Below the pieces are notes generated by a model. That model saw only the letters and a program-made list of their open reading frames with translations. It searched no databases and was not told where the DNA came from. Shown here in pieces: positions 1-43,780 of a stretch of 64,000 nt of DNA (positions within the stretch are counted from its first letter, which is position 1; each line of letters starts with the position of its first letter). Location of the stretch: positions 9,943 to 73,942 of the forward strand of contig PCXZ01000023.1 of the NCBI GenBank assembly GCA_002762985.1, in the 5' to 3' direction. Both the position numbers and the translations under genes were made by a program. The stretch comes from Candidatus Woesearchaeota archaeon CG10_big_fil_rev_8_21_14_0_10_44_13 (GTDB lineage Archaea > Nanobdellota > Nanobdellia > Woesearchaeales > UBA12501).

Positions 1-628
1 AGTTTTTATTATTTTTATTTAACATCTCTTTCTCTATAATCTTTTTGAATTCCCTGACATTAGAAAATAAAAATCCCCTTATGCCTGCTTTTTTTGCAGA
101 TTCCACATTCTCTTTCTTGTCATCAAAGAACAAAACCTCATTTGGATTGACTTTCAGCGTTTTGAGGCATTTTTTAAAAAATTCCGGGTTTTTTTTGTAT
201 GTCTTTGCCTTTTCTGAAATGAATATGCTGTCAAACAGTCTTATTGAATCCAGGTTTTTCCTTTGCCACCTTAGATCTTTGCTGCTGGTGTTTTCTGCCA
301 GTGCCAGTCGGACATCACTCTTCTGTTTTATCTTTTTCAGGAGCAAAACAACTTCATGATTGTCTTTGTAAACACCATCCAGGGTCCCAGCCATTCTTTT
401 ATAAGGCAGTTTTTTCCCAGATTTTCTGCATAATCTTTCGTGCAGATCCCTGGAGGTTATTTTTCCCTGTTCATACAGGCTATAAAGGCCGTTCTGCCCA
501 TAAAGCCCCCTTGCAAACCTCTCCTTAACACCATAAATCCTGCAAATATTACTTATCTGGGCATCCTCTATCCATCTTCCTGTTACACCGCCGTAATCCA
601 GCATCAATACTTTTATCATTCCTATCAT
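1..628 (-). CDS. HAD-superfamily hydrolase, 3' end truncated by window start
   Basis: Own reverse-strand translation, open to the window edge: MIGMIKVLMLDYGGVTGRWIED...NPNEVLFFDDKKENVESAKKAGIRGFLF. HAD motif I-like DYGGV and late FFDDKKENVESAKKAG motif. The ATG overlaps the previous gene's TGA (ATGA at 625-628). Not in the supplied ORF track because it has no stop inside the window. Confidence 0.8.
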   Translation of the reverse strand, partial: MIGMIKVLMLDYGGVTGRWIEDAQISNICRIYGVKERFARGLYGQNGLYSLYEQGKITSRDLHERLCRKSGKKLPYKRMAGTLDGVYKDNHEVVLLLKKIKQKSDVRLALAENTSSKDLRWQRKNLDSIRLFDSIFISEKAKTYKKNPEFFKKCLKTLKVNPNEVLFFDDKKENVESAKKAGIRGFLFSNVREFKKIIEKEMLNKNNKN

Positions 629-2169
629 TCCTGACCGCCGCTTTTCGCCTTTTCAAGTATCCTCACAACACCATGATTCGCATTTACCTCTATATAATCG
701 CCATCCTTTAATACCTTTGTGGCGATCCCGGTTCCGATGATGCATGGTATCTTAAGCTCCCTGCTGACAATCGCAGCATGGCAAGTTACGCCTCCTTCAT
801 CCGTCACTATCGCAGCAGCCTTTTTCATCGCAGGCACATAATCGGGCAGTGTCATGCTTGCAACAAGGATGTCGCCTTTCCCGATTTTCTTTATCGCATC
901 CTGGGATGAGAAGCACACCTTTGCCTTGCCTATCTCCTTGCCGGGCGATGCAATCGTTCCTGTGAAGTTTGTTATCCCCTCGAATGCTGATAAGAGCTCC
1001 TCCCCTCTTCTTTCTGCCGCTTTCTTGCCTGTATGCTGCTCTATCCCTTTTTTTTCAACAAGCATGAAGAAGGACTTTCTCCTTTCATCCGCCTTGTTCT
1101 TATCAATACCTTCGCCTTCAAACACCTTTTTTATCTCATCCGGCCAGCACCAGGCAAGATCCCCGGGATCATGGCCTTTTCTTTTTCCGATCTCACCAAG
1201 GATGATGTTCAGGGCTTCTGTCGTCTTCATCTGGGCCTCTTTCCTGTAATCATGGAAAACAGCATAATTCTCAAATATATCTATGTAAGTATCCATCTCA
1301 TCATCAAATTTAAGGTCTTTTCCCAGGATCTTCTTTCTTGTTTCTGCTTCCTCTGCTGAATTCTTCAGTCTTATGGCCTCTCTGTCAATATCCTCTCCTT
1401 TTTTTATTATCTCCTTTATCTCGCTGACCACACCCTCAAATGTCTTTCTGTTTCTTTGGGACCATGTGAGTTCAATCCACCAAAACCTGCTTAGCAGGGC
1501 CTTTATCTTTTCCCTTACCTCTTTTTTCGTCTCAAACGAATCCTCTGCGCCGTTCTTTTTTATGAACGAACATACCCCATAAAGTTCAATGTCAAATTCC
1601 GTCATGTAAGATGTATAATTCGGCGTAAGGATGACGCCAAGGGCATTGTTGAAATCCTTTGGTGTAAAACCCTTCCTGTTTTTCTCCATCAGCACACTGA
1701 GCTTGTCTTTTATCTTTTTCTCAAGGACGATGTCTATCGCGTCTATGTCGAATGACAGCCCATGGTATATCATAGTCTCTTTGTGGAATCCTGCATATTC
1801 CTGGGAAAGTTCACTGTCTTTGAGCCCGCCTAATCCTGACCTGATTATCTTTTCCGCATGGTTTATGATGTTGATAAAACATTCCTTGTGCTTTTTGAAG
1901 TGGGATCTCCTGTTTTTTCCATCCTTCAGCCAGCTGATAAGAAATTCCCCTATAACATGAATATCCTTTTCCCAGTTGCACCACCATGTCCTTTGGGCAT
2001 CATTAGCCACAAGAATCCTTGTAAATGGTGATCCTATCATTTTTCCTGACTCGTTGACCACGCCCATCGCAATAGTCGATGCCGTATGGAGAGGTATCAC
2101 TTCCCTTACATACTCAAGCCATATGCCTTTTTTGTCTTTCATCTCTTCACTTTCACGGATTTTTGTCAT
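625..2169 (-). CDS. PEP-utiliser phosphohistidine (swivelling) domain protein, ATP-grasp-less; paralog 1
   Basis: C-terminal [55 protein letters not shown] matches the PEP-utilizers mobile domain; ~380 aa helical N-terminal region; no ATP-grasp visible. Confidence 0.85.
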   Translation of the reverse strand: MTKIRESEEMKDKKGIWLEYVREVIPLHTASTIAMGVVNESGKMIGSPFTRILVANDAQRTWWCNWEKDIHVIGEFLISWLKDGKNRRSHFKKHKECFINIINHAEKIIRSGLGGLKDSELSQEYAGFHKETMIYHGLSFDIDAIDIVLEKKIKDKLSVLMEKNRKGFTPKDFNNALGVILTPNYTSYMTEFDIELYGVCSFIKKNGAEDSFETKKEVREKIKALLSRFWWIELTWSQRNRKTFEGVVSEIKEIIKKGEDIDREAIRLKNSAEEAETRKKILGKDLKFDDEMDTYIDIFENYAVFHDYRKEAQMKTTEALNIILGEIGKRKGHDPGDLAWCWPDEIKKVFEGEGIDKNKADERRKSFFMLVEKKGIEQHTGKKAAERRGEELLSAFEGITNFTGTIASPGKEIGKAKVCFSSQDAIKKIGKGDILVASMTLPDYVPAMKKAAAIVTDEGGVTCHAAIVSRELKIPCIIGTGIATKVLKDGDYIEVNANHGVVRILEKAKSGGQE

Positions 2170-3623
2170 CCTTTCCCGCCGCTTTTCGCCTTCTCAAGTA
2201 TTATTATCAGGCCATGGTTGCCTTTTATCTCGACAAGATCACCATCATGGAGTATTTTGGTCGCAATCTTCGTACCGATTATGCATGGTATCCCAAGCTC
2301 CCTGCTCACAATGGCTGCATGGCATGTTATGCCACCTTCATCTGTTATTATGGCTACTGCTTTCTTCATCGCCAGGACATATTCCGGGCGCGTCATCGAT
2401 GCGACAAGCACATTGCCTTCCTTGAACTGGCTTATCGACTCAAGGTTCGTGCATATCTGCACCCTGCCGATCGCAGTGCCTGATGACGCAGTCATGCCGT
2501 TTATCTCCCTTATATCAGATTCTTTTGTCCTGTTGAATCTTGCTGCAAAATCCATGTAATAATCCCCTGTCGCGACAGTCGATGTGTCTGCTGTCTGCAG
2601 ATAAAGGCCCCCTTTCATCCTCTCTTCCAGCATCTTCACATACTTTTTGGATTTCATGTTTTCTATGCTTATCTCAGGAGGTATTGCATTCTTCAGGAGG
2701 TCATGCCTTATGCCGAACCTCAGGCCCAATGCCTCAAGCATCCTGTCTATATGCTCTATGGCTATAAGTATGTTCTTTTTCCTCTCATCCTGCCAGTGTA
2801 TCAGGAATTCTGTGGCTTTTATCTTCACAATGAGGCCCTTTTCAAGGCCGAGCTCTTTTATTGCCCTATTCTTGTCGTCTAAGATCTTCCTGAAATCGGT
2901 CTTATTGTTCTTCAGCGTCTTTATGGAATCAGTGATGTCTTCTCTTGTCATCGCCTGTCTTCCCGTATAGTTGTTCCTTATCCAGAAGAACTTTTTTATG
3001 TGCTGCTGTATGAGCTTTTCCCTCTTTTTCTCGTCCTTCTCCTTTGATATGAGCCAGAGATGCTCCTCTTCCTCATTCACGAATGATTTTTTCACAGGGG
3101 ACATGAGCAGTGTGAATATGTTGTTCAGGCCTTTCTCATCCTTCACGTACCTTTTCAGCTCTTCCTTTATCTTGACATCAGTCTTCAGGGCGAATGGCTC
3201 TATCACATGGCCTATGCCTACTGCTATGGAAAGCCCCTCTGAGACATATTTGGCAAGCTTCACAAGTTCATAGTCATTCAATCCCTCAACCCTCTTTTTA
3301 TCCATCTTCGAGTAAAACCTGAGATATCTTTTCATCTGGGCATCGTATCTCCTCTTCAGCTTCTGGAAGTATTTTGGGTCTTTCTCCACTTTCTTCTCTA
3401 TTATGCCCCCAAGCCTTACAAGATCTTCCTCAAAATAATTCATGCTCCCGTACCCGTCTTTGAACACATAGAGGTATTTTGTGTATCCGAACCCCACAAA
3501 TCTCTTCATGTAGAAGCCGCTGGTGGCAGCAGCGCTTATGAAGAAAGGATATATGGGGCAGCTCTGCGCGTACCACTTCTGCCCGAGGCATTCATCAAGC
3601 ATTTTCTTTTCATTGTCATTCAT
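2166..3623 (-). CDS. PEP-utiliser phosphohistidine domain protein, ATP-grasp-less; paralog 2
   Basis: C-terminal [50 protein letters not shown]; 4-nt ATGA overlap with downstream gene. Confidence 0.85.
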   Translation of the reverse strand: MNDNEKKMLDECLGQKWYAQSCPIYPFFISAAATSGFYMKRFVGFGYTKYLYVFKDGYGSMNYFEEDLVRLGGIIEKKVEKDPKYFQKLKRRYDAQMKRYLRFYSKMDKKRVEGLNDYELVKLAKYVSEGLSIAVGIGHVIEPFALKTDVKIKEELKRYVKDEKGLNNIFTLLMSPVKKSFVNEEEEHLWLISKEKDEKKREKLIQQHIKKFFWIRNNYTGRQAMTREDITDSIKTLKNNKTDFRKILDDKNRAIKELGLEKGLIVKIKATEFLIHWQDERKKNILIAIEHIDRMLEALGLRFGIRHDLLKNAIPPEISIENMKSKKYVKMLEERMKGGLYLQTADTSTVATGDYYMDFAARFNRTKESDIREINGMTASSGTAIGRVQICTNLESISQFKEGNVLVASMTRPEYVLAMKKAVAIITDEGGITCHAAIVSRELGIPCIIGTKIATKILHDGDLVEIKGNHGLIIILEKAKSGGKG

Positions 3624-4984
3624 TTTACCAGCCTTACCATTCCATTATCAGCATCCACTTCTATAATATCCCCGTCTTTCAATGACTTCGTGCCTATTCT
3701 TGTGCCTATTATGCACGGCTTGCCCATCTCCCTCGCAACTATTGCCGCATGCGATGTCAGGCCGCCCTCGTCTGTCACAAAAGCAGCCGCCTTATCCATT
3801 GCAGCTATATAATTGGGGTGGGTTGTGACACCTATGATTATATCGCCCTTTTGGATTTTGCCAAGGTCATTGTTGCCTTTTACTATCTTTGCAGTGCCTG
3901 TCACTTTACCTTTATTTGCAATAACCCCATGGATGATATCCTTTTTTGTCTCTTTTTTAATTTCAATGCCCAGTTTTTTAATGATATTATCAATATCTTT
4001 GCCGCTTGCGCACATGAGCTTCTTGCCCTTGAACCATAGCACAAATCCTTTCTTCCTCTCCTGGATCTTCTGCATATCTGGCTTTGAGTTTCCATGCAGG
4101 GCAGCAACAATCTCTTCTTTCAGCATATAGCCCATATCTTCCCTGTCAAGCCCGATCCTTCCTGATATTTCCTCAAAGAAACCAAGAAGGTTATAAATCC
4201 CTTTTCTCCTGTAATCATCTCTAAGGTCCCTGACGTATACGGCAAGGTTGGCCTTTCTTATGATATCTTCCTCTCCTTTTGTCAGTTTCAGCATTTTTGG
4301 GATCTCATCGAGGCTGTATTTTGGCTCAGGATCCTTTTTGAAATCTTTTATTGTATCCATGAACTCATCCCTTGTCCAGGGATTGCTGCCAACATCTATG
4401 CAGGGCACCCACTTATATTCTTCATAGACCTTGCTGATATCTTTTGCATTGAGGACGTCCTCTTTCATTTTTATGACAGATACTTTCCTTAAGGGCGTGA
4501 ATACTGTCTTGAGCACTTCTTCCTGCTCTTTTCTGTTTTTAACTTTTTTCAGTATAAGCTCATTGGCCATTTCTGTTGCGAGGTCCGACATAAGGAAGAT
4601 TGCATATTGCGCATGGCCGTGCCTCACTCTCGAGACCCAGTATTCCTCAAAAACCCCAAGAAGCTCTTTGTTGCTGAGCCGCTTGAGATCCTTTTTTGCT
4701 ATCTCCTTTGCCAATTCCAGGAATCCAAGGCCTAAATCATCTCCAAACTTCTCAAGAAGACTGAATGACTTAAAGTCTTTCATATACCTCCTTACCAGGC
4801 CTTCCTCCAGCCTGTTCTGCGCATCTTCATCTATGTAATATACCTCTCTCCCATTGTCAGGTATGAGCGCGACATCATATGTTGTTGTTGGACTGATATC
4901 CCTGACAAGATCGCCAATGAAATAGATGCAGATTTCACAGTAATGCAGGGCATATTCACGGGCCCACGTCCTTAGCATGGTCAT
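3620..4984 (-). CDS. PEP-utiliser phosphohistidine domain protein, ATP-grasp-less; paralog 3
   Basis: C-terminal [56 protein letters not shown]; 4-nt overlaps on both sides. Confidence 0.85.
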   Translation of the reverse strand: MTMLRTWAREYALHYCEICIYFIGDLVRDISPTTTYDVALIPDNGREVYYIDEDAQNRLEEGLVRRYMKDFKSFSLLEKFGDDLGLGFLELAKEIAKKDLKRLSNKELLGVFEEYWVSRVRHGHAQYAIFLMSDLATEMANELILKKVKNRKEQEEVLKTVFTPLRKVSVIKMKEDVLNAKDISKVYEEYKWVPCIDVGSNPWTRDEFMDTIKDFKKDPEPKYSLDEIPKMLKLTKGEEDIIRKANLAVYVRDLRDDYRRKGIYNLLGFFEEISGRIGLDREDMGYMLKEEIVAALHGNSKPDMQKIQERKKGFVLWFKGKKLMCASGKDIDNIIKKLGIEIKKETKKDIIHGVIANKGKVTGTAKIVKGNNDLGKIQKGDIIIGVTTHPNYIAAMDKAAAFVTDEGGLTSHAAIVAREMGKPCIIGTRIGTKSLKDGDIIEVDADNGMVRLVK

Positions 4985-6411
4985 TTTATCTTCCTCACAA
5001 CGCCTTTGTCTGCATCAACCTCGATTATATCCCCATCCTTGAGCAAATGCGTCGCGATCTTAGTCCCTATTATGCATGGGATCTTCAATTCCCTCGACAC
5101 GATAGCCGCATGGCACGTTACACCGCCTTCATCAGTGACGATCGCAACAGCCTTCTTTATGGCAACGACAAACTCTGGCTTAGTCATGCTAGACACTATC
5201 ACATCGCCCTGCTCCATCTTTCCCATCTCTCTTGTCCCGTTGATTATCTTCACCCTGCCCCTGGCTTTTCCCAGTGAAGCGGCCATGCCTTTGAATTCGG
5301 TTATCCCTCCTGTGTCAACAGACAATTCCATCCTTATGATGTCCTCTGCCTCTTTCCCTGAATGGATCTCCCATACTTTCTTCCTGTTGTTTATGTATAA
5401 GACGCAGACTTCAAGAAGGTTGTCTGCATGGTCTTTGTCCATCCCCTTCCCTTGCTCAAGCTTATGTATATCCTCTGCGGAAAAAACAGAGAGCTGCTCT
5501 TTTGTGTAACCGTTCCTTTTCGCAATCTCTGCCCTGCAAGTATCCGCCGTATAGATCGTCCTCATGAACAGTTCCTTCCTGATGTCATGCAATGGGCCGA
5601 TCACATCCATGATCCCGAATAGCGCTTTTGTTTCATTGTCAATCGGCTTTTCCCCAACTATCTCCTTTTTCCTGCTGTTTATCCCGTTCTTGAAATCCTT
5701 AAGCTTTTTAAGCTCTTTATTGAGGCCTTTTTTACCCAATTCATCAAGCCTTTCCCGGAAATATGACAATGGGAGGTCTTTCCTTCCCATGTGGGCTGAT
5801 TGCAGCCACCTGTACCTATAAGCGTGTTTTTTCAGCAGTCCCTGCTGCTTTCCTTTCGGCTTAAGGCCTATGCATATCAATCCCTGCGTTTCCTTGTTGA
5901 TGAAGCTCGTATCAGCTATCGCAATCATGTCTGCGATCTCCTGGGCAGTATAACTCTGCTTAAGCAGCCTGCCCTCTACCATCTTTGGCATGACAAAATC
6001 CATAGGTTCGGCGAAGAACCCCCAGTCGAAATTATGTATGTAGAGATGATTTGATTTTTTGAATATGCTGAAAAGCTTCTTGCCGCTGATCTTCCGGAAA
6101 TCGTTCCTGTCGGATGCGTCAAGCTCTTTCACAGCCTTCTTGTAGAAATTCCTGTAGTCCCTGTCGAATTTCTGCCTGAATGCCCTGTTCTTGAATCTCT
6201 CGACAAGTGAATTGCCTACTTTCTCATTCTCTGATTCAAGGCAGCACCACCAGAACTTGTGGCCTTCCCTGACAGAGACAAGATGCTCATTGAAGCATAT
6301 GCCGCACATGTCTTTCATCGAGCCGCACAGTGATTTTGCGGCTTCTATGGCGATCCACACGACCGAATCAGCCTTGTCTATGTCCCATTTCATTTTATTA
6401 TCTTCACCCAT
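4981..6411 (-). CDS. PEP-utiliser phosphohistidine domain protein, ATP-grasp-less; paralog 4
   Basis: C-terminal [56 protein letters not shown]. Confidence 0.85.
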   Translation of the reverse strand: MGEDNKMKWDIDKADSVVWIAIEAAKSLCGSMKDMCGICFNEHLVSVREGHKFWWCCLESENEKVGNSLVERFKNRAFRQKFDRDYRNFYKKAVKELDASDRNDFRKISGKKLFSIFKKSNHLYIHNFDWGFFAEPMDFVMPKMVEGRLLKQSYTAQEIADMIAIADTSFINKETQGLICIGLKPKGKQQGLLKKHAYRYRWLQSAHMGRKDLPLSYFRERLDELGKKGLNKELKKLKDFKNGINSRKKEIVGEKPIDNETKALFGIMDVIGPLHDIRKELFMRTIYTADTCRAEIAKRNGYTKEQLSVFSAEDIHKLEQGKGMDKDHADNLLEVCVLYINNRKKVWEIHSGKEAEDIIRMELSVDTGGITEFKGMAASLGKARGRVKIINGTREMGKMEQGDVIVSSMTKPEFVVAIKKAVAIVTDEGGVTCHAAIVSRELKIPCIIGTKIATHLLKDGDIIEVDADKGVVRKIK

Positions 6412-7949
6412 CCATGATTCGCATTGACCTCTATGAGCTGGCCGTCCTTAAGAACTTTCGTGGCTATCTTGGTGCCTATGATGCATGGAATTCCTATCTC
6501 CCTTGAAACGATAGCAGCGTGGGAGGTTATGCCGCCTTCATCTGTCACTATTGCTGCTGCCCTTTTCATCGCAGGCACATAATCAGGCCTGGTCATGACA
6601 GCCACGAGTATATCCCCTTTCTCGACCTTGGCGATTTCGGTTGCGCTTTTCACTATCTTCACCTTTCCTGTTGCCTTGCCAGTACATGCTGTCAGGCCCC
6701 TGAAATCGTCTATGTCTGACAGGCTGGTCTCACCAAGGACAGCCTTTCTTACCTCATCAGCATCCTTTGAATGCAATGCCTCCATGCCCTCTTTCTCCCA
6801 GTAATAGACCCCATTCTTCCTTCTTGCCTTGAGGTCTGTTGCGTTAGGTGCACGCTCAAAAATCCTGCTCGTCTCCCTGCAAGTCATGTATTTCAGGTCC
6901 TCTATGTCAATCTTGACCCTTTTGGATATCTCTGCCAGTATGAGGCTGAAGTAATGAGTTATCCATAATGTCGATCTTTTCCTCTCATCCTGCCAGTATG
7001 TGAAATCCTCTGAGATCCTGATCATGGTTTTCAGGCCTTTGCCCAATTCTATCTGCTTCATCATTTCATCTTTCTTTTTCTTGTTCAGTGCGGGGGTACC
7101 CTTTATCTTGTCAAGATCCTTCTTCAAGCCGATGTCAAGCTCAAAAAGCCTTTTTATCTCTTCGATGAAATCACCAGCATCCAGCACATATGAGGATACA
7201 TAATTGTTCTTCACCCAGAAGAAATTCTTCTGGTGTTTCCCTAATGAGATGAGTGATTTAGCGTTCTTTATGAGGTCTTTGATTTTTTTTGGTTCGTTCC
7301 TGACAAAAATATTTTTCAGGCCTTCCTTCTCCATCTCAATAGCGACCTTGAGCAGGGAAACTTCTGCCTCATTTATGAATGACAGATGCACCGGCGCAGT
7401 CAATATAGAGAAGACATCTGCAAAACGCATCTTGTCCTTCAAGGCTGATTTTTCATATATCTCTTTTATCTCATCTGCGATCATCACATCTGTCCCAAGC
7501 GCAAATCCGTCTATAAGCGAGCTTGAGCTGTTCTTATTCAATATGATATCAGCGAATTCATCATGCACTTTTATCAGTTCCCTGTCATTGAGCTTGCCAA
7601 GGTCCATCTTCTCTATCTCGATGCATTTCTTATAAAACCTGTCCTGGTCAGGCTGCCATAGCTTGATGAACCTTGAGCTTATCTGCGGGTCTTTTTTCCC
7701 TGCCCTGATGACAGCAGCAGAAACTTTTTTTATGTCATCCATAAGGATATACCAGTCCGCCTTGCCGTTATCATAGAAGCAGTAATGGACAGTGAAATTC
7801 CCGCCAAGCTTTCTTTTTTCATGGACAGCGATCTCCCCTTCTGCTATGAAATGCATGAAGAACGGGCTCCCGTCAAATCTCTGGTGATACCATTCCTTGT
7901 TCAGCCAGTTATTGAGCTTTCTTTTCGCCAGGCCTTTTATGTATTCCAT
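6390..7949 (-). CDS. PEP-utiliser phosphohistidine domain protein, ATP-grasp-less; paralog 5
   Basis: C-terminal [50 protein letters not shown]; internal WQDERKRSTLW motif shared with paralogs; 22-nt overlap with paralog 4. Confidence 0.85.
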   Translation of the reverse strand: MEYIKGLAKRKLNNWLNKEWYHQRFDGSPFFMHFIAEGEIAVHEKRKLGGNFTVHYCFYDNGKADWYILMDDIKKVSAAVIRAGKKDPQISSRFIKLWQPDQDRFYKKCIEIEKMDLGKLNDRELIKVHDEFADIILNKNSSSSLIDGFALGTDVMIADEIKEIYEKSALKDKMRFADVFSILTAPVHLSFINEAEVSLLKVAIEMEKEGLKNIFVRNEPKKIKDLIKNAKSLISLGKHQKNFFWVKNNYVSSYVLDAGDFIEEIKRLFELDIGLKKDLDKIKGTPALNKKKKDEMMKQIELGKGLKTMIRISEDFTYWQDERKRSTLWITHYFSLILAEISKRVKIDIEDLKYMTCRETSRIFERAPNATDLKARRKNGVYYWEKEGMEALHSKDADEVRKAVLGETSLSDIDDFRGLTACTGKATGKVKIVKSATEIAKVEKGDILVAVMTRPDYVPAMKRAAAIVTDEGGITSHAAIVSREIGIPCIIGTKIATKVLKDGQLIEVNANHGWVKIIK

Positions 7950-7974
7950 CTTTTCACCTTTTGGTCCATATTTT

Positions 7975-9456
7975 TCATCGTTTTATTATCCTTATCACGC
8001 CTTCATTGGCATCAACTTCAATCATGCTGCCGTCCTTTATCGCCTGCGTCGCGATCTTAGTCCCTGTTATGCACGGGATTTTCAGCTCTCTTGATACGAT
8101 AGCAGCATGGCTTGTAAGGCCTCCCTGGTCTGTCACGATAGCGCTCGCTTTTTTCATCGCAACAACAAAGTCAGGGGCAGTCATTGTAGTGACGAGGATA
8201 TCCCCCTTCTTCATCCTTGGCAGTTCCCTTACGCTCAGCATCAGGCAGGCTTTGCCTTTTGCATAGCCCTTGTTCGCTATGATCCCTTCGACCTTGTTCA
8301 TGTCTGTTATTTCCACCTCAAAAAGCCAGTCATAAGCCTCTCCAGATTTTTTCCGGTCAAGGACATTGTATTTTCCGTTCTCATATTCAATGACGCATAC
8401 ATCCTTCCTTTGATTTATGATACTCTTGAATTCTTCCTGTTTTTCAAAAAGGACGAATATCTCCTCAGGCAGCAGGTATTTCATGTCCTGCATCCCTATG
8501 CCGACCCTCCTTCCGAGCTCTGCAATCAGGATGTCCAGGTAATGCATCCCTTTCAGGTTGTATTTTTTCCTCTCGTCCTGGAAAAGCATGAATTCATCGA
8601 TAATATCTGACAATTTCACCACATATCTGCTTAATTTAAGTTCTTTTATCATCTCTCCCTTCTTTTTAGCAGACTCTTTTACATGCTCTTGTATCTCTTT
8701 TATCTTATTATCCTCATCAATTCCCTCTTCAAGCCATTTTTTTATTATCCCTCCAAAATACTTCCAGCCAAGATACCTTGTTTCGTAATAATTGTTGAGT
8801 ATCCAGAAATATTCCTTTACATGCCCTGCAATCCTCCTGTCTTTCCTGAAATCATATTTCCCTTCCAGGATATCTTTCTTGTCCTTCCTGAGATCTTTGG
8901 TTATTTTCAGCAGATCGCTCTCTTCCCTTGCATAGAAAGACGGTTTTGTTGGGGCGCAGAGGATGACAAGTGCATCATTCAGTTTTTCCTGGGGGGTAAT
9001 CTTCTCAATCTCTTCCTTCAGCATCTTCTCTGCTCCGAAATTCACAGGCTCTGCGAGCATGCCTGGACCCCACATACCATAATATGCTTTTGTGAATCTT
9101 CTGAATAAATCCATTAGATCCTCATCAGAAAGCCCGGCCACATTTGTTTTTTCAATCTCTTCATGCACTTCTTCAAGCTCTTCTATCCTTTTTCTCCACA
9201 AAGCAAGGGTCTTTTTCCTGTCCTTCTCATCAAGAATAAGCTTTTTTACAAACTCTTTCCCGCTGTCAGTTAGCTCATTCATCTCATTGAACCAGGTCAT
9301 CTTGTCTTTCTTGAATGCAAGAGCCCCTTTAGGCCATGCAATGCCATAATCTGCCTTTATCTCCCTGACACCAGGCAATGCTGCATAATGGCTTGTCAAA
9401 GGAGCCCCATCATTAGGTCCCCATACAAAAAGATCCTTTGAGCTGAAGATTTTCAT
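7975..9456 (-). CDS. PEP-utiliser phosphohistidine domain protein, ATP-grasp-less; paralog 6
   Basis: C-terminal [50 protein letters not shown]; internal YFWILNNYY and FQDERKK motifs. Confidence 0.85.
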
Positions 9457-9481
9457 ATTTTTCCCGCTTATCTTTCCCTGC

Positions 9482-10483
9482 CTATCCCTCTTCAGAGTTC
9501 GCCTCCATCGCAGCAGTTATCACAAGGTTCGTCACAAGGTCCTGCGGAGTGCTCCTGCCTAATATCATGACGGGCTTCCTTATCCCTGCAAGCAGGGTGA
9601 TCCCGAATACACTCTCAGAAAGCTTCATTATCAGGTGGCAGGCTATGTTTGATGCGACAAGGTTGGGGAATATGAGGACATTTGCGTCTCCCATCACCTT
9701 TGCTCCTGGGCATTTCCTTCCTGCGGCCTTTGGGTCCAGCGATGCGTCTGCCTGCATCTCTCCTTCAAAGACATAATTTAGCCTCTTATCCTGGGCGATC
9801 TTCGTTGCTTCCCTTGATTTAAGTATGACCGGCGCATCCCCTCCTGAGCCTTTTGTAGAGAAGGACAGGAACGAAACCTTCGGCTTGAATCCGAAAGCGT
9901 GCGCAACATCAGCAGCATTCACCCCTATCTGGGCAAGCTGCTCAGCATCAGGGTCTATGTTCAGGCTGCAGTCAGAGATGAACAATATCCTCTTGTTCTT
10001 CCTGTCATCGACAACAATCACCTCAGAAACAAGAGTTGCGTCTTTCTTTGTCTTTATTATCTGCAATGCAGGCCTCATAAGGTCAGCAGTTGGGCATATT
10101 GCGCTCCCCGCAAGGCCGTCTGCGTATCCGGTCTGCACAAGCATGCAGCCGAAGTAATTCACATCATCAAGAAGCTTTCCTGCCTGCTCTTCTGTAAGGC
10201 CTTTGGCTTTCCTAAGCTCATAAAGATCTTTTGCAAGCTTTTCCCTGAGCTTTGATGCCTTCGGGTCTATGATCTCTGCTTTTGTTATATTGACCTTGAA
10301 TTTCTTTGCCTCCTCTTTTATCTTCTTCTCGTCCCCTAAGAGGACAAGATCAGCATAGCCCTCTTTAAGCACATGATCTGCAGCCTTAAGGCATCTCTCA
10401 TCCCAGCCTTCTGCAATCACTATCTTCCTTCTCTTCAGCCTTGCCTTTTTCTTCACTATATCCAATATATCATTCATGTCCAT
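9482..10483 (-). CDS. pta: Phosphate acetyltransferase (phosphotransacetylase)
   Basis: [32 protein letters not shown]..., [77 protein letters not shown] are characteristic of Pta. Confidence 0.92.
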
Positions 10484-10541
10484 TTTAGCACCTCTAAGCC
10501 CATATTAATCATATTATGGCACCATCAATGACCTTCTTATT

Positions 10542-12020
10542 TTAAATCTTTTTGATGATGCCTGTGCGAGTATCAATCTCCACCTTATCCCCTGTCTTCA
10601 GCACCCTTGTCCCGTTCTTTGTGCCTATTATGCATGGTATCCCCATCTCCCTGCTCACAATCGCAGCATGGCATGTTATGCCTCCTTCATCTGTGATGAC
10701 AGCCTTCGCTTTCCTCATGATATGGAGGAAATCCGGCCTTGTCATTGTCGTGACAAGTATCCTTCCTTCGGGGAATTCCTCCTTGTGGGGATCGAGTATC
10801 ACATTCACTTCCCCAGTGATATTGCCCTCTGCCCTGTTAGCCACAATGCCTTTGACAATACCCTCCTTTATCTTCCTGTCAAACGCTTCAATTATCTGCT
10901 TTGCTTCTTTGCCTTTGATGAGCAGATTGCCCTCGAGGGTCGATGTCATATAGACACAGCACTCAATCCTCCCCTTCAATTCCCCTTCCGGCACTAATCT
11001 GCCTTCTGACAGGAGGGAATTAACCTCATCGCGGCTGTAATTGCTTATCTCTTTCCATCCAAGGCCGTATCTTGCTCCTGCCTCATTGAGGATTTTCGTT
11101 ATGTAATGGTTTGCCTTCAGCATCGTTCTCTTCCTCTCATCTATCATCACGCCGAAAATCTCATAGATACTGAACATCCTCAAAGTCCCACTGCTCAGTT
11201 CATACTTTCTCCTGAATGCGGCTTTTTTCTTCCTGAATTTCTCCTTGTCAGAACTGATCTTTGCAATCTTTCCTCTTATGTCATTCTCTGTCATGCCCCT
11301 TATCTCCTCATCAACCCTTTCAAGGAAATATCTTTCATCAAGATCGAATGTCTGCGAGTAGTTGTTCTTTATCCAGAAATATCTCCTGGCATGCCGCTTC
11401 AGCATCCTCCCAAATCCCCTGCTTTTCCTTATGCGGCCCAGGCAGAGCCTGAGGAAATCAGCGCGTTCATGGTCCATGAAGCTCCACATGGCCGGAGTAG
11501 AGAACATGATCATGACTTCATTGATCTCATCCTCCCTTATGCCTTCTTTTCCTTTCAGGACAGGCACAACATGGTGCTCAGCAAAGCTGTCCCCTATCTC
11601 AGGTATTGCCGCAATAGCTATGAAAGGCACATAAATCCTATAAAGATTGTTGTATAATCCCAATAATCGTTTGTTTGTTGCCTTTTCAAGATCCATCACC
11701 CCAATCTTCTCAAAAAAACCCGCAAGCCTCTTTTCGAACAATCTCTGCTTTTTCAGCAATCTTTCAGCAATCTTGCTGTCTTTCTCTGTCTGTTTGATCA
11801 TCCACAGGAACAGCCTGTTCTTCGCGTCTTCCGGAGTCTCTTCCCTGAATTTGCCGTTCTCGAGCAATAGGAAATTCCTGATTGAGTAAGGGAATGGTAT
11901 ATGTTCATCCAATCTTGTGAAGCAATCCATGAAATAAAGGCTCAGGCCAAGGCCGCCCGGCGCTTCCTCAGTCCACCAGTCCGAAGATTCAATATCCTTC
12001 ACTATTCTCTTTATGTCCAT
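10542..12020 (-). CDS. PEP-utiliser phosphohistidine domain protein, ATP-grasp-less; paralog 7
   Basis: C-terminal [50 protein letters not shown]; internal YFWIKNNYSQTFDLDERYF and IDERKRTML motifs. Start placed at internal M (MDIKRIVKD); the ORF extends to 12032. Confidence 0.83.
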   Translation of the reverse strand: MDIKRIVKDIESSDWWTEEAPGGLGLSLYFMDCFTRLDEHIPFPYSIRNFLLLENGKFREETPEDAKNRLFLWMIKQTEKDSKIAERLLKKQRLFEKRLAGFFEKIGVMDLEKATNKRLLGLYNNLYRIYVPFIAIAAIPEIGDSFAEHHVVPVLKGKEGIREDEINEVMIMFSTPAMWSFMDHERADFLRLCLGRIRKSRGFGRMLKRHARRYFWIKNNYSQTFDLDERYFLERVDEEIRGMTENDIRGKIAKISSDKEKFRKKKAAFRRKYELSSGTLRMFSIYEIFGVMIDERKRTMLKANHYITKILNEAGARYGLGWKEISNYSRDEVNSLLSEGRLVPEGELKGRIECCVYMTSTLEGNLLIKGKEAKQIIEAFDRKIKEGIVKGIVANRAEGNITGEVNVILDPHKEEFPEGRILVTTMTRPDFLHIMRKAKAVITDEGGITCHAAIVSREMGIPCIIGTKNGTRVLKTGDKVEIDTRTGIIKKI

Positions 12021-12101
12021 ACCTTGCCTCAACTGTCTTCCTGTCTTCTTTTCCTCACTCTCCTTTTGGTTTTTTAGGTTTATCCCTGTTTTTATACTTT
12101 T

Positions 12102-30742: not shown

Positions 30743-31342
30743 ATGGCTGAAAAAAAGGCTCAAAATGATGATGCAATAGGCAAAATAACCGATTTCCTGT
30801 ATGAGACAGGCCAGCTCAAAAGGGTGAAGAGGTCAGGCTGGTGGCTCATTGGGGTGGATAACCCTGAGAATGTCGCAGAGCATAGCTTCAGGGCAGCTGT
30901 TGTAGGTTATTTCCTTGCGAAGATGGAGAGGGTTGACACTGACAAGGTCGTCCAGATGTGCCTGTTCAATGACCTTCACGAATCAAGGATAAACGACCTG
31001 CATAAAGTGGGCCATCGCTACATAGATTTTAGGGAAGCCGAGACAAAGGCAAACAGGGAGCAGACATCAGGCATTGGCGATGCTGGCAGGGAGATATTCT
31101 CATTGCATGAGGAATTCCAGGCGCAGAAGACAAGAGAGTCCATTGTCGCAAGGGATGCTGACCTTCTTGAGAACGCATTGCAGGCAAGGGAATACATGAA
31201 GGTAGGCTATGCTGATGCGCAGAACTGGATAGATAACATCTGGAAGATCATTGCGACAGAATCCGGCAAGAAGCTGCTGTGCGAGATAGAGAAGACGGAT
31301 CCGAATGACTGGTGGAAAGGGCTGAAGAGGATTGAGAGGTGA
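30743..31342 (+). CDS. HD-domain (YfbR/HD_3-like) phosphohydrolase family protein with altered HD motif
   Basis: NVAEHSFRAAVVGYFLAKMERVDTDKVVQMCLFNDLHESRINDLHKVGHRYID...VARDADLLENALQ. Confidence 0.75.
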   Translation: MAEKKAQNDDAIGKITDFLYETGQLKRVKRSGWWLIGVDNPENVAEHSFRAAVVGYFLAKMERVDTDKVVQMCLFNDLHESRINDLHKVGHRYIDFREAETKANREQTSGIGDAGREIFSLHEEFQAQKTRESIVARDADLLENALQAREYMKVGYADAQNWIDNIWKIIATESGKKLLCEIEKTDPNDWWKGLKRIER

Positions 31343-31345
31343 GGG

Positions 31346-32818
31346 ATGTCCGCACATCAAGATTATATCGAGATAGCCGGCCACAAATGGTTCACCACCA
31401 TACACAGGACAATGTCATTCTGGCACCAATGCCTGTCAGCCTATGGGCAATATCATCACGCAAAAGATTTTGGCGTCAATGCAGGGCTTATCCAGCTTGC
31501 AATAATATCTGATGGGATTAATACGGATCTCTTCCATTATAAGGAGAATGAATATATTTACAACAAGGCGGTGTTAAAAGCCCTCAATTCGAAAGGCAAA
31601 GTCAAAGCTCTCCATGATAGATATAAAAGATTTGCGAAAGAACTTATTGATTCATTGAACAGATGCAATAAAAAATTGAATGAGTCAAACCTAAGGGATT
31701 TCATGAGAAAGTACAGGCTGTTTTGCGCCGGGTTGCATCTGACTACAACTATCGGCAGGCAGGGTGCAGATCTCCTTTCAGAAGAACTGAGAAAGTTGGG
31801 GGCGGATGATTCCGAAATCCCGAAAATAATATCCTCAATAACCTACCCCCTTCATCACACCCCTTTATTCAATTCGCAGCTGGATCTGCTCAAAATAGCA
31901 ATGGATATCCAGAAAAAGAAGATAAAACAAAAACAGGCCGATTCAAGGCTAAACGGCTGGCTCGATAAACATGGGCCTATCCCAATCAACTTTTGCGGGA
32001 ATCCTTGGAACTTTGAAGATGCAGAAAATCAGCTTAAATATGCCCTAAAAAAAGATTGTGCAAAAGAGATAAAATCTTTTGGGATAATCCATAAAGATAA
32101 GTTAAAGAATGCAAAAAATACCTTGAAAACACTCAATAATCCAAGAGTGACACTTCTCTCATATATCCTCTCAGAAGGGACATATCTTAACGAATACAGG
32201 AAAAATGTTTTCTCAAGGGTCTCCTTGGAGTTCAGGCCGATGTTCAAGAAGATTGCAGGGATGTCAGGATCAGAGGACTGGAGAGACTGTTTTTACCTGA
32301 AGCCAGAAGAATTTATCGATATAATCAAAGGGAAAAAGATCAGCTTAAACAACATTAAACATGAAAGAAAGATTGCTGGACTGGTTATGGGCAAAGATGG
32401 AGAGCTAGAACTCCTGAGCCAGGGGGATGTTCAGATGGTCATGGATTACCTAAATGAGATGCATGGCAGATCAGGTTCCGCACCACGCATCTCAGAATCA
32501 TATGTCCGGGGTTTTGCAGCAAGCAGGGGCATAATCACGGGAAAAGCAAAGATAATCCTCAATACGAATGATTTTGGAAAGCTGGAAGCAGGAGATATCC
32601 TAATCACAACCATGACCTCTGTTGATTTCATCCCAGTGATGGAGAAAGTAGCAGCCTTTGTCACAAACGAAGGAGGCATAACCTGCCATGCCTCAATCGT
32701 TTCAAGAGAGATGAACAAGCCGTGCGTCATAGGCACTAAGATAGCGACGAAGATTTTTAAGGACGGCGACCTTGTCGAGGTTGATGCTGACAAGGGCATC
32801 GTGAGGAAAATAAAATGA
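31346..32818 (+). CDS. PEP-utiliser phosphohistidine domain protein, ATP-grasp-less; paralog 8
   Basis: C-terminal AAFVTNEGGITCHASIVSREMNKPCVIGTKIATKIFKDGDLVEVDADKGIVRKIK. Confidence 0.83.
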   Translation: MSAHQDYIEIAGHKWFTTIHRTMSFWHQCLSAYGQYHHAKDFGVNAGLIQLAIISDGINTDLFHYKENEYIYNKAVLKALNSKGKVKALHDRYKRFAKELIDSLNRCNKKLNESNLRDFMRKYRLFCAGLHLTTTIGRQGADLLSEELRKLGADDSEIPKIISSITYPLHHTPLFNSQLDLLKIAMDIQKKKIKQKQADSRLNGWLDKHGPIPINFCGNPWNFEDAENQLKYALKKDCAKEIKSFGIIHKDKLKNAKNTLKTLNNPRVTLLSYILSEGTYLNEYRKNVFSRVSLEFRPMFKKIAGMSGSEDWRDCFYLKPEEFIDIIKGKKISLNNIKHERKIAGLVMGKDGELELLSQGDVQMVMDYLNEMHGRSGSAPRISESYVRGFAASRGIITGKAKIILNTNDFGKLEAGDILITTMTSVDFIPVMEKVAAFVTNEGGITCHASIVSREMNKPCVIGTKIATKIFKDGDLVEVDADKGIVRKIK

Positions 32819-34215
32819 GCGATTACATCTTCTTATGGGGCAATTCCCAATCTAATCTGACCCTCCAGGCAAACATTGTTTCTGCATTAAGGCACAAGGA
32901 TATCCCCTGGAACCGCATAGAAAAGATGGTGCTTGTGTCAAGAAACAACAGGATATACTGCTTTCATTCCAAAAAGAGCGCGATTCATGATAAGGAGCTC
33001 AGCAGGAAGTTTTTTGACAAAAAATTCGCCGAAAAACTTTTTAAAAGAATGAACACGGATTACGCAAAGCATTGGAAATTCTTTGATGTCATGTGGAAAA
33101 CCGACTACTCAAGATTATCGGATAAAGACCTTATGAAACATCTGACAAAAGCCATTGACAACTGGTCGCTGATCATAGGATATTTCAGGGCAACACAAAC
33201 AACCTCAACCCATTACCTGGATGAGAAACTAAAAAAGATTTTTGGAGACAAGGACACATCATTATTGATGCTCTCTCCAGAGCTTGACAGCGCAAACAGG
33301 GAGATCATATCGTGGCAGAATCTTGTCAAGTGCCATTATTCCGGGAAAAAACTGCTGAATCACGCCAGAAAATACCCCTGGGTTGTAGCCTTTCACTTGA
33401 CCTATAAGGATGTCATCGACACCCTCAGGCATAGATTTGAATATGACAGGAAGAACCTCCTATGGAGGGATGTGAGAAAAGAAAAGGAAGAATTGAAAAA
33501 AAAGCAGAAACAGATTCTTAAGAATAAGCCCCATCTTAAACCGGTTGTTGATATTGTCCAAAAACTGGCATTGTCGCGAATGCAGATAAAATCATGCTGG
33601 GCGGGTACCGACTTTTATCTTATGCCTTTAATAAATGAGATCTCTAAAAGAACAGGGGAATCTGTACAAAGCATATCAAAATATTATCTTATTGAAGAAA
33701 TAAAAATGTTGCTTGATGGCAGATTATTATCGGAACAAGAGAAGCAGAACAGAAAACTATGTTTTGTCGGACTCCTGAAAGACGGGAAAGAAATATATGA
33801 ATCCGGGGATGAGGCAGAAAAACTCGCAAAAAAAGAGTTGAAAGACCTATATGAAGTAAAGGAAACCAGCGAGATAAAAGGCGATACGGCAAACCCGGGC
33901 AATGTTGTCGGCATAGCAAGAATTCTAGAATCAAATAATGTCGAGCAGACAAGGGGGCTTAGGGCGTCATTCAAAAAAGGCGAGATACTCATAACACAAA
34001 TGACCCAGCCAAGCATTATGGATATTGCTGGCAGGGCTTCTGCAATAGTGACTGATGAGGGTGGCATGCTGTCTCATGCAGCGATAATCTCAAGGGAATT
34101 TGATATCCCATGCATAGTTGGCACGCATTTCGCAACAACATTGATAAAAGATGGTGAAATGATTGAAGTCGACGCCAACAAAGGAACCGTTAGGAAAATA
34201 AAAAAAATCAGATAA
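32815..34215 (+). CDS. PEP-utiliser phosphohistidine domain protein, ATP-grasp-less; paralog 9
   Basis: C-terminal ASAIVTDEGGMLSHAAIISREFDIPCIVGTHFATTLIKDGEMIEVDANKGTVRKIK; ATGA overlap with paralog 8. Confidence 0.83.
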   Translation: MSDYIFLWGNSQSNLTLQANIVSALRHKDIPWNRIEKMVLVSRNNRIYCFHSKKSAIHDKELSRKFFDKKFAEKLFKRMNTDYAKHWKFFDVMWKTDYSRLSDKDLMKHLTKAIDNWSLIIGYFRATQTTSTHYLDEKLKKIFGDKDTSLLMLSPELDSANREIISWQNLVKCHYSGKKLLNHARKYPWVVAFHLTYKDVIDTLRHRFEYDRKNLLWRDVRKEKEELKKKQKQILKNKPHLKPVVDIVQKLALSRMQIKSCWAGTDFYLMPLINEISKRTGESVQSISKYYLIEEIKMLLDGRLLSEQEKQNRKLCFVGLLKDGKEIYESGDEAEKLAKKELKDLYEVKETSEIKGDTANPGNVVGIARILESNNVEQTRGLRASFKKGEILITQMTQPSIMDIAGRASAIVTDEGGMLSHAAIISREFDIPCIVGTHFATTLIKDGEMIEVDANKGTVRKIKKIR

Positions 34216-42259: not shown

Positions 42260-43780
42260 ATGGCCTGTTTCATATCCTTCATGGGTGGCGAAATAACCGG
42301 AAGGATAAAGGGCACAGAATGGAAGAAATGGGGCTCAAGGAGGGTTTCATTGAGGCTTGCAGAGCACTGGGCATTATGCACATTGCGCTTCCCGAAATTC
42401 TTCAAGATGAGATTCCCTGAACACCTGTTCCTTATCGAAAATGATGTCTGCCACGGCTATCTTGAAAAGAAACAGCTCGATGTATGCCTGAACGACCTAC
42501 TGAAGGGGATTTACAGGTCATCCTTCACTGAATTTTATGAGAAAAAGGCCAACATAATCTTCAGTAGATTCCTCGCTTTCTGCAAAAAAATACCAAAACT
42601 TCCGCTGAAAAGGACGAGAAAGGAGGATCTTCTCATCCTGTATGACAAGTTCATTGAAGAAGAGGACAATTTCACGAATTTTGCCTGGGTCGTATTCATA
42701 CTGGATGATTTCATCTCAAAAAAGCTCGAGGAGAAGCTGAAGATATTCCTGAAAGAGAAACGACAGGAGGACAGGCTGCAGGATTACCTTAACATAATAC
42801 TTTCGCCTGAGAAGAAATCTGCTGTTTTCCTCCAGACGATAGACGTGCTGAAAATCGCCGATAAAATCAAGAACAAGAGGATAAGCGGCGCCCAGATAGG
42901 CAAAGAGATGGAGAGGATGGAAAAGAAGTACGGTTATTTCAATGTCTATAATCTCGATGAGAGCCCCTTGTCAAGGGATTATTTCCGCAGCGAGATAAAA
43001 AAGATGCTTTCTGACAGGGTTTTTGAGCCTAAAAAGGAGATTGCAAGGATAAATGCCCGGTTTGAAGCGAATAGGAAGGAATATTCAAAGCTTTCAAGGC
43101 TCTTCAAGAAGGACCGCAAGCTGTCCATCCTCGCAGAGTCCTGCCATAAAATATCTTATTACAGGGACCGCAGGAATGATATAAGGAGAGAGGGATATTA
43201 TAGCATAAGCAGATTATATGCCGAGATTGCAGCGTGCGCAAAAACAGACCTGACATCCCTAATATATATGAATAGGGATGAGATAAGGGAGACATTGAAG
43301 AAAGGAAAACCGGCAGTAAGCAGGGGGGCGATCGAGAAAAGGAAAGAATATTCCTGCGCAGCACTGATCAACGGGAAGATGGAATACATCTTCGACCCAG
43401 TCATTGTTTCCGGCCTGATTGAATCCATAAACCCCAAGATAGAGATAGACGAATTCAAAGGCCTGGCCGCAAGCCCCGGCAAGATCACCGGCAGGGTGAA
43501 AGTGATATTCAACACGCAGAAAGATGCTTCAAAACTTGGCCAGGGCGATATACTTGTCACATCCATGACTAACCTTGATTTCGTGCCTTTGATGTCAAGG
43601 GCATCTGCAATAGTCACAGATGAAGGCGGCCTTCTGTGCCATGCGGCGATTGTCTCAAGAGAGATGAAGAAGCCCTGCATTGTCGGGACAGCGATAGCGA
43701 CAAAAGCCCTTAAGGATAATGATCTGGTCGAAGTGAATGCCAATCATGGCTTTGTTAAGATGATAAAACGCGCCCAATAG
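42260..43780 (+). CDS. PEP-utiliser phosphohistidine domain protein, ATP-grasp-less; paralog 10
   Basis: C-terminal [56 protein letters not shown]; the start could be the internal M of MGGEITG. Confidence 0.83.
   Translation: MACFISFMGGEITGRIKGTEWKKWGSRRVSLRLAEHWALCTLRFPKFFKMRFPEHLFLIENDVCHGYLEKKQLDVCLNDLLKGIYRSSFTEFYEKKANIIFSRFLAFCKKIPKLPLKRTRKEDLLILYDKFIEEEDNFTNFAWVVFILDDFISKKLEEKLKIFLKEKRQEDRLQDYLNIILSPEKKSAVFLQTIDVLKIADKIKNKRISGAQIGKEMERMEKKYGYFNVYNLDESPLSRDYFRSEIKKMLSDRVFEPKKEIARINARFEANRKEYSKLSRLFKKDRKLSILAESCHKISYYRDRRNDIRREGYYSISRLYAEIAACAKTDLTSLIYMNRDEIRETLKKGKPAVSRGAIEKRKEYSCAALINGKMEYIFDPVIVSGLIESINPKIEIDEFKGLAASPGKITGRVKVIFNTQKDASKLGQGDILVTSMTNLDFVPLMSRASAIVTDEGGLLCHAAIVSREMKKPCIVGTAIATKALKDNDLVEVNANHGFVKMIKRAQ

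Follow-up and report, generated by a model that had tools for sequence, protein, structure and literature searches.

The stretch of DNA described here, referred to as the window, is 64 kb long and corresponds to positions 9943-73942 of contig C24 in the genome of Candidatus Woesearchaeota archaeon CG10_big_fil_rev_8_21_14_0_10_44_13 (the home genome, 1.5 Mb and 98% complete). Seven intact genes for acceptor/swivel proteins are clustered on the reverse strand at 625-12032, and each of their products (454-519 amino acids, aa) consists of a helical N-terminal domain of ~370-390 aa followed by a C-terminal phosphohistidine swivel. This array is likely to be a multiplexed two-component dikinase of the rifampin phosphotransferase (RPH) type, in which a single ATP-grasp protein, here named K, serves many acceptors. 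The original prediction, made from the sequence alone, had proposed an undescribed modular system. What appears to be new is the multiplexing of one kinase with many acceptors, the polymodular fusions, the distribution among DPANN archaea and Patescibacteria, and the phosphatase partners; the basic mechanism, an ATP-grasp protein and an acceptor/swivel partner, is already known from HpeHI, CreHI, and PpsAB (PMC12167813). A description of such arrays or of their multiplexing was not found in the open-access literature, most subscription papers lying outside the search. The genes of the array are as follows.

625..2169, - strand: acceptor/swivel 1, 514 aa; PF00391 at 431-500; acceptor (A1) profile 531 bits, full length
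2166..3623, - strand: acceptor/swivel 2, 485 aa; Pfam PF00391 and acceptor profile
3620..4984, - strand: acceptor/swivel 3, 454 aa; Pfam PF00391 and acceptor profile
4981..6411, - strand: acceptor/swivel 4, 476 aa; Pfam PF00391 and acceptor profile
6390..7949, - strand: acceptor/swivel 5, 519 aa; Pfam PF00391; placed in the tree of 108 acceptors
7975..9456, - strand: acceptor/swivel 6, 493 aa; AlphaFold2 model; best Foldseek match RPH-Lm 5fbt, E 7.6e-14
9482..10483, - strand: phosphotransacetylase (Pta), inside the cluster; PF01515, E 2.2e-88
10542..12032, - strand: acceptor/swivel 7, 496 aa; Pfam PF00391 and acceptor profile

All seven same-strand open reading frames that had been predicted to end in an intact swivel of the phosphoenolpyruvate (PEP)-utiliser type are present, each with a PF00391 domain. 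The term tandem array, however, applies to six of them, which are followed by pta and then by the seventh, whose end is at 12032, not at 12020 as first given. The gaps between acceptors 1-6 are -4, -4, -4, -22, and +25 nucleotides (nt), so that most of these genes overlap, while pta separates acceptors 6 and 7 at +25 nt from the former and +58 nt from the latter. Given the Pta gene at 9482-10483, acetyl-phosphate chemistry may be linked to the array. The window holds ten acceptor/swivel genes and the home genome 17 stand-alone ones, which together with one domain inside a complete PEP synthase account for all 18 PF00391 domains of the genome.

PF00391 is the sole significant Pfam match in each of the seven array proteins (E 5e-24 to 2e-26). 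In agreement with the original prediction, neither the ATP-grasp domain (PF01326) nor the PEP-binding barrel (PF02896) was matched in any of the seven by the Pfam search, and the single copy of the barrel in the genome belongs to PEP synthase. NCBIfam models for PEP synthase, RPH, and related proteins match mainly the swivel, with the RPH-type matches reaching 70-130 residues further upstream. A profile of the N-terminal regions alone, built from the 17 home proteins, gave no RPH match against the PDB and only chance-level matches. The profile of 108 acceptors aligns over positions 94-489 with residues 442-866 of RPH-Lm (E 6e-39), which covers most of the rifampin-binding domain and the swivel, whereas PEP synthase and pyruvate phosphate dikinase (PPDK) align with it at the swivel and linker only. 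Acceptor 6 was modelled by AlphaFold2 with a predicted local distance difference test score (pLDDT) of 96.5 and a predicted template modelling score (pTM) of 0.93, and the six top PDB matches of this model in Foldseek are all RPH, followed by swivel-type matches. Because the profile search, the AlphaFold model, and Foldseek all lead there, the N-terminal domain, previously taken for an unknown fold, is, as modelled, the substrate-binding domain of RPH. The N-terminal regions were also searched for a divergent ATP-grasp or a complete PEP synthase architecture, and neither was found; the former is ruled out by Pfam, the 108-sequence profile, and Foldseek.

The swivel histidine is conserved in all 108 relatives within a T/SxxGGxxxH motif, and the catalytic histidine is kept in 350/350 modules, including 19 that lack the search pattern and that, read by eye, vary in flanking residues only. 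Both recurring patterns first noticed in the helical region are real: the DERK[KR] motif is well represented (D in 76, R in 94, and K in 82 of the 108 relatives), and [YF]xWixNNY is weaker (Y/F in 100, W in 81, and N in 46). The suggested resemblance of the DERK block to RPH-like proteins holds in part: the block aligns to R666-E667-Y-P-K670 of RPH, with D294 (76/108) opposite E667 and K297 (82/108) opposite K670; the second phosphoryl transfer of RPH requires both E667 and R666 (PMC4844700). Among the home paralogues, mean identity is 17% for the acceptor domains and 50% for the swivels. The conserved swivels fit docking on one shared kinase and the divergent acceptor domains fit a change of substrate, which sustains the earlier impression of substrate diversification. 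A variant swivel motif, DGG(T/H)G(V/I)TSHPA(I/T)LAREA, replaces [16 protein letters not shown] in L057, L061, L073, L105, and L125, with a HAD phosphatase joined to the variant module at L125.

A separate kinase that could charge the swivels in trans had been anticipated, and the genome search found one. The home genome contains two ATP-grasp domains of the PPDK_N type, one in PEP synthase and the other in an orphan protein.

C24:5660-6619, - strand: orphan ATP-grasp protein K, 319 aa; PF01326, 370 bits

K lies on the strand of the array, ~4 kb downstream of it, and is itself followed after 150 nt by two more acceptor genes. The protein terminates exactly at the ATP-grasp domain boundary (...ILQARPVTTLK). 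It matches the ATP domains of PEP synthase, RPH (5hv6), and HpeI (9goj), and retains the family-invariant residues K28, R119, E299, Q311, and R313. In the kinase tree, which includes two Micrarchaeal rows labelled K (L136 and L146) that are probably PEP synthases, the orphan and fused kinases are split from the N-domains of PEP synthase by a long branch (SH-aLRT 100).

The distribution of K follows that of the acceptors. Counted among the matches listed, 60 related genomes comprise 16 with acceptors and K, 1 with K only, 5 with acceptors only, and 38 with neither (p=2e-9), and the 279 genomes of the home phylum comprise 29, 7, 20, and 223, respectively (p=6e-20); the genomes are interrelated, so these p-values are approximate. 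K and acceptor genes are adjacent or fused at many loci, with a single K joined to 1-8 modules; in several genomes, consecutive modules run head to tail in one chain that either includes a K or lacks it. The structure that best matches a natural K-acceptor-swivel fusion of 807 aa at L151 is full-length RPH (E 7e-39), and much larger proteins occur at other loci.

L061:6814-19416 (G050:C37), + strand: 4201 aa; eight modules, a receiver-like domain between modules 6 and 7, and a C-terminal PPDK_N
L115:6236-17518: 3761 aa; K and eight modules
L064:5323-13767: 2815 aa; six modules, with K elsewhere
L063:2310-8960: 2217 aa; K and four modules
L066: 2013 aa; giant protein like that of L061
G218:C18: 3768 aa; giant open frame like that of L061

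Together, the co-occurrence of K with acceptors and these natural fusions strongly support the charging of acceptors by K in trans.

In the proposed mechanism, K would bind ATP and phosphorylate the swivel histidine of any acceptor that docks on it. By analogy with PpsAB and RPH, the chemistry would pass through pyrophosphohistidine and yield phosphohistidine, Pi, and AMP; loading of the histidine from ATP with release of AMP and Pi would also accord with the known chemistry of HpeHI (PMC12167813, PMC4844700). The charged swivel would then swing back to its own RPH-like substrate-binding domain and hand the phosphoryl group to an acceptor-specific substrate. The fold, the partners, and precedent point to small molecules as these substrates, most likely metabolites with a hydroxyl (or amine) group. 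The phosphatases encoded with the arrays, of the histidine-phosphatase, HAD, HD, and low-molecular-weight protein tyrosine phosphatase (LMW-PTP) types, would act on the same products. As a guess, the most likely biological role would be the trapping or salvage of metabolites from a host or neighbour.

By all the structural criteria examined, the acceptors and K belong to the two-component RPH-like dikinases, of which HpeHI, CreHI, PpsAB, and PasAB are characterised enzymes acting on small molecules (PMC12167813, PMC7500099). The first three share with the present system a separate ATP-grasp protein and a partner with an RPH-type substrate-binding domain and a C-terminal histidine swivel, but they pair one kinase with one acceptor in an operon for aromatic catabolism, whereas here one kinase accompanies up to ~26 acceptors. 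The present acceptor domains are also shorter and very divergent, form polymodular fusions, and are accompanied by phosphatases and not by a UbiD carboxylase; a downstream UbiD is a trait of the phenol-degrading two-component dikinases only and does not define the family. RPH (5fbt, 5hv1) has the same acceptor and swivel fold, and its domain order is reproduced by the K-acceptor-swivel fusions, yet RPH is built as one chain and has one substrate, while here the ATP-grasp is detached and shared, the single-chain order occurring only in fusions of relatives. The swivel and ATP-grasp are likewise homologous to those of PEP synthase and PPDK, and K obtains better scores with PEP synthase models than with RPH; in contrast to these enzymes, the acceptors have no PEP/pyruvate-binding barrel, and a complete PEP synthase is encoded separately in the home genome.

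A comparison in terms of function can be made with the phosphotransferase system (PTS), which shares Enzyme I among many Enzymes II. Both would use a general phosphoryl donor for many substrate-specific components via phosphohistidine, but the predicted donor here is ATP rather than PEP, the PEP-binding domain of Enzyme I is absent, no membrane components were seen in the array, and HPr (PF00381) was not found in the home genome. It is conceivable, and we put it forward tentatively, that the system acts as an ATP-driven phosphotransfer hub, a PTS counterpart in ultra-small symbionts, in which K and horizontally traded, cassette-like acceptors (some of them polymodular proteins of 2000-4200 aa with receiver domains), each with its own phosphatase or downstream enzyme, would trap many host metabolites. 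Much of microbial diversity belongs to the DPANN archaea and the Patescibacteria, and how organisms with genomes of 1-1.5 Mb feed on their hosts is little understood. For a genome of 1.5 Mb, 17 genes constitute a very large paralogous enzyme set; the set is common to archaea and bacteria through frequent exchange, and its biochemistry, one kinase with many acceptors, is testable.

The phosphatases and the remaining acceptors of the window are listed below.

1..628, - strand: HAD-type phosphatase, 5' part, the full gene (C24:9818-10570) extending beyond the window edge; array-associated HAD family, E 1.7e-55 (iterative search)
30743..31342, + strand: YfbR-like HD-domain phosphohydrolase, directly before acceptor 8; PF13023, E 2.2e-28 (L013:686-1285)
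31346..32818, + strand: acceptor/swivel 8, 490 aa; PF00391 and acceptor profile
32815..34215, + strand: acceptor/swivel 9, 466 aa; PF00391 and acceptor profile
42260..43780, + strand: acceptor/swivel 10, 506 aa; PF00391 and acceptor profile

The start codon of the HAD gene overlaps the stop of acceptor 1, and the same gene holds a 43-base N run (C24:9900-9942, an assembly gap or masked) just beyond the window. When genes directly beside acceptors were compared with distant genes on the same contigs, with families defined by iterative profile search, the most enriched neighbour was a ~300-aa protein of the histidine-phosphatase superfamily (16/161 vs 4/795 in the background, p=6e-10), followed by a ~200-aa HAD protein (7 vs 3, p=3e-4) and a ~200-aa HD protein (5 vs 1, p=7e-4). 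The HD gene stands directly 3' of one acceptor class in 4/4 members (mutual best hits at 41-50% identity from four different metagenome-assembled genomes, MAGs), and a HAD gene stands 3' of the sister acceptor pair L107_8355/L089_16060. In the home genome, LMW-PTP-like genes overlap two acceptors, one acceptor follows the YfbR-like HD gene, and one follows a histidine phosphatase. As a BLAST query, the array-associated histidine phosphatase had no match in 21 related genomes; a divergent member of the family is present in the home genome (L015). A TagD/RfaE-like nucleotidyltransferase fused to an acceptor/swivel module in Taylorbacteria (L090:7986-9914, + strand) suggests sugar or polyol phosphates as products. 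Pta-family proteins are found twice more among acceptor-adjacent genes elsewhere.

Several observations weigh against the proposed system of a shared kinase and metabolite-specific acceptors. A separate K was not found, among the matches listed, in 20 of the 49 acceptor-bearing genomes, some of which are well assembled (G110), and part of these acceptor-only genomes may reflect incompleteness. One relative that is 90% complete (G021) has nine acceptor matches and, among the matches listed, lacks any PPDK_N domain, be it in a PEP synthase or in an orphan kinase; in genomes without K, PEP synthase or another donor could charge the acceptors. R666 of RPH has no strictly aligned counterpart in the acceptors (Q293 stands there), and the conserved R296 lies one helical turn off; from the alignment, it is plausible that R296 is the equivalent. 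The model of the L151 fusion is poorly resolved in the acceptor domain (pLDDT 75) and was used for the overall domain order only. In addition, receiver (Response_reg) domains that retain the acidic pair, Asp, Ser/Thr, and Lys lie between modules in two giant proteins (L069:4164-4661 and L061:15109-15582, both +), and helix-turn-helix (HTH) domains of the ArsR/TrmB-like type precede two acceptors (L121), fusions that hint at signalling over plain metabolism.

Phosphohistidine signalling is the main rival, given these fusions, the histidine phosphatases, and VadK, although we consider it unlikely. K would here charge many swivels that pass the phosphoryl group to proteins (receivers, regulators, or enzymes), the acceptor domains would sense ligands, and the histidine phosphatases, which head the list of enriched neighbours, would reset the system like SixA, which is reported to dephosphorylate NPr (PMC7948535). 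VadK (Rv1127c), a truncated PPDK that serves as a regulatory histidine kinase, has a PPDK-derived ATP-grasp and a swivel without PEP barrel and autophosphorylates on histidine; it differs in carrying both domains in one chain, in having no acceptor domain, and in acting on proteins of the methylcitrate cycle (PMC13400623). Against signalling stand the fold of the acceptor domain, which is that of a small-molecule site, the rarity of receiver and HTH fusions among the 350 modules, the fusion of one acceptor to a nucleotidyltransferase, and the adjoining phosphatases, which come from several unrelated families (HAD, HD, LMW-PTP), a mix in keeping with small-molecule phosphates.

The RPH-like fold also raises the prospect of drug or toxin inactivation, in which the acceptors would be diversified resistance proteins, phosphorylating antibiotics or toxins of hosts and competitors in the way that RPH phosphorylates rifampin. 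The closest solved structure is RPH itself, and many divergent, horizontally exchanged paralogues would fit an arms race, but this explanation is improbable: PADLOC gave no meaningful match for seven proteins, the best matches have no viral or mobile context, orthologous acceptor classes are kept across phyla, and dedicated acceptor-adjacent phosphatases would reverse the inactivation. An anti-phage defence system was rejected on the same PADLOC result.

We regard the degradation of phenol or other aromatics as very improbable, even though the nearest characterised two-component enzymes, PpsAB, CreHI, and HpeHI, act on phenols (PMC12167813). It was suggested in a study of hydrothermal-vent DPANN, where 'phenylphosphate synthase' genes were reported without phenylphosphate carboxylase (PMC8091004). 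Loci L092 and L100, whose isolate names (DPANNHV) point to that study, hold arrays of the acceptor family, and the 'phenylphosphate synthase' annotations are probably this acceptor/K system. A UbiD-type carboxylase (PF01977) was not found in the home genome, while positive controls were matched in 9/14, and up to ~26 divergent copies per ~1.5-Mb genome are implausible for one catabolic pathway. Scattered annotations such as 'PEP synthase', 'phenylphosphate synthase', and aromatic degradation would unite as one system under the acceptor/K reading. Least probable of all is that the acceptors are leftovers of PEP synthase or RPH genes whose ATP-grasp has been lost, either in decay or charged as a side effect of PEP synthase. 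In its favour, some acceptor-bearing genomes lack a separate K among the matches listed. The invariant catalytic histidine contradicts it, and the intact and tightly coupled array genes and the conservation and exchange of the family across two domains of life also speak against it.

Across the 84,980 species genomes scanned, the loci lie, among the matches listed, almost only in DPANN archaea (Woesearchaeota, Pacearchaeota, Nanoarchaeia, and Micrarchaeota) and in >12 candidate phyla of Patescibacteria; rarer host groups may exist beyond these matches. With a profile of the N-domain only, acceptors were found patchily, in 49/279 genomes of the home phylum. Arrays of 5-12 genes are common among the loci of relatives, some of which have 24-26 acceptor-profile matches in symbiont-like genomes of ~1.5 Mb. 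The 7,825-bp contig of L095, labelled Candidatus Aminicenantes, appears to be identical to that of L076, which comes from a relative in the home order, and the label is probably that of a misclassified MAG; the labels of the Planctomycetota Prado159 contigs L094, L153, and L154 warrant like caution. A viral origin was rejected, the best matches having no viral or mobile context, and a search of viral_contigs gave six weak matches only, mostly to the swivel. Acceptor genes are pervasively exchanged between archaea and bacteria: explaining the archaea/bacteria labels on the tree of 108 acceptors takes 30 changes, compared with 35 when labels are shuffled, and the starred branches alone force at least 17. 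Acceptor 5 (6390-7949), for example, is 66% identical to a Woesearchaeota protein and has a Taylorbacteria protein as its sister group. A recent tandem duplication of the array was rejected because the home paralogues nest with different orthologues in the tree, a placement by which the array is an assembly of old, exchangeable specificity classes.

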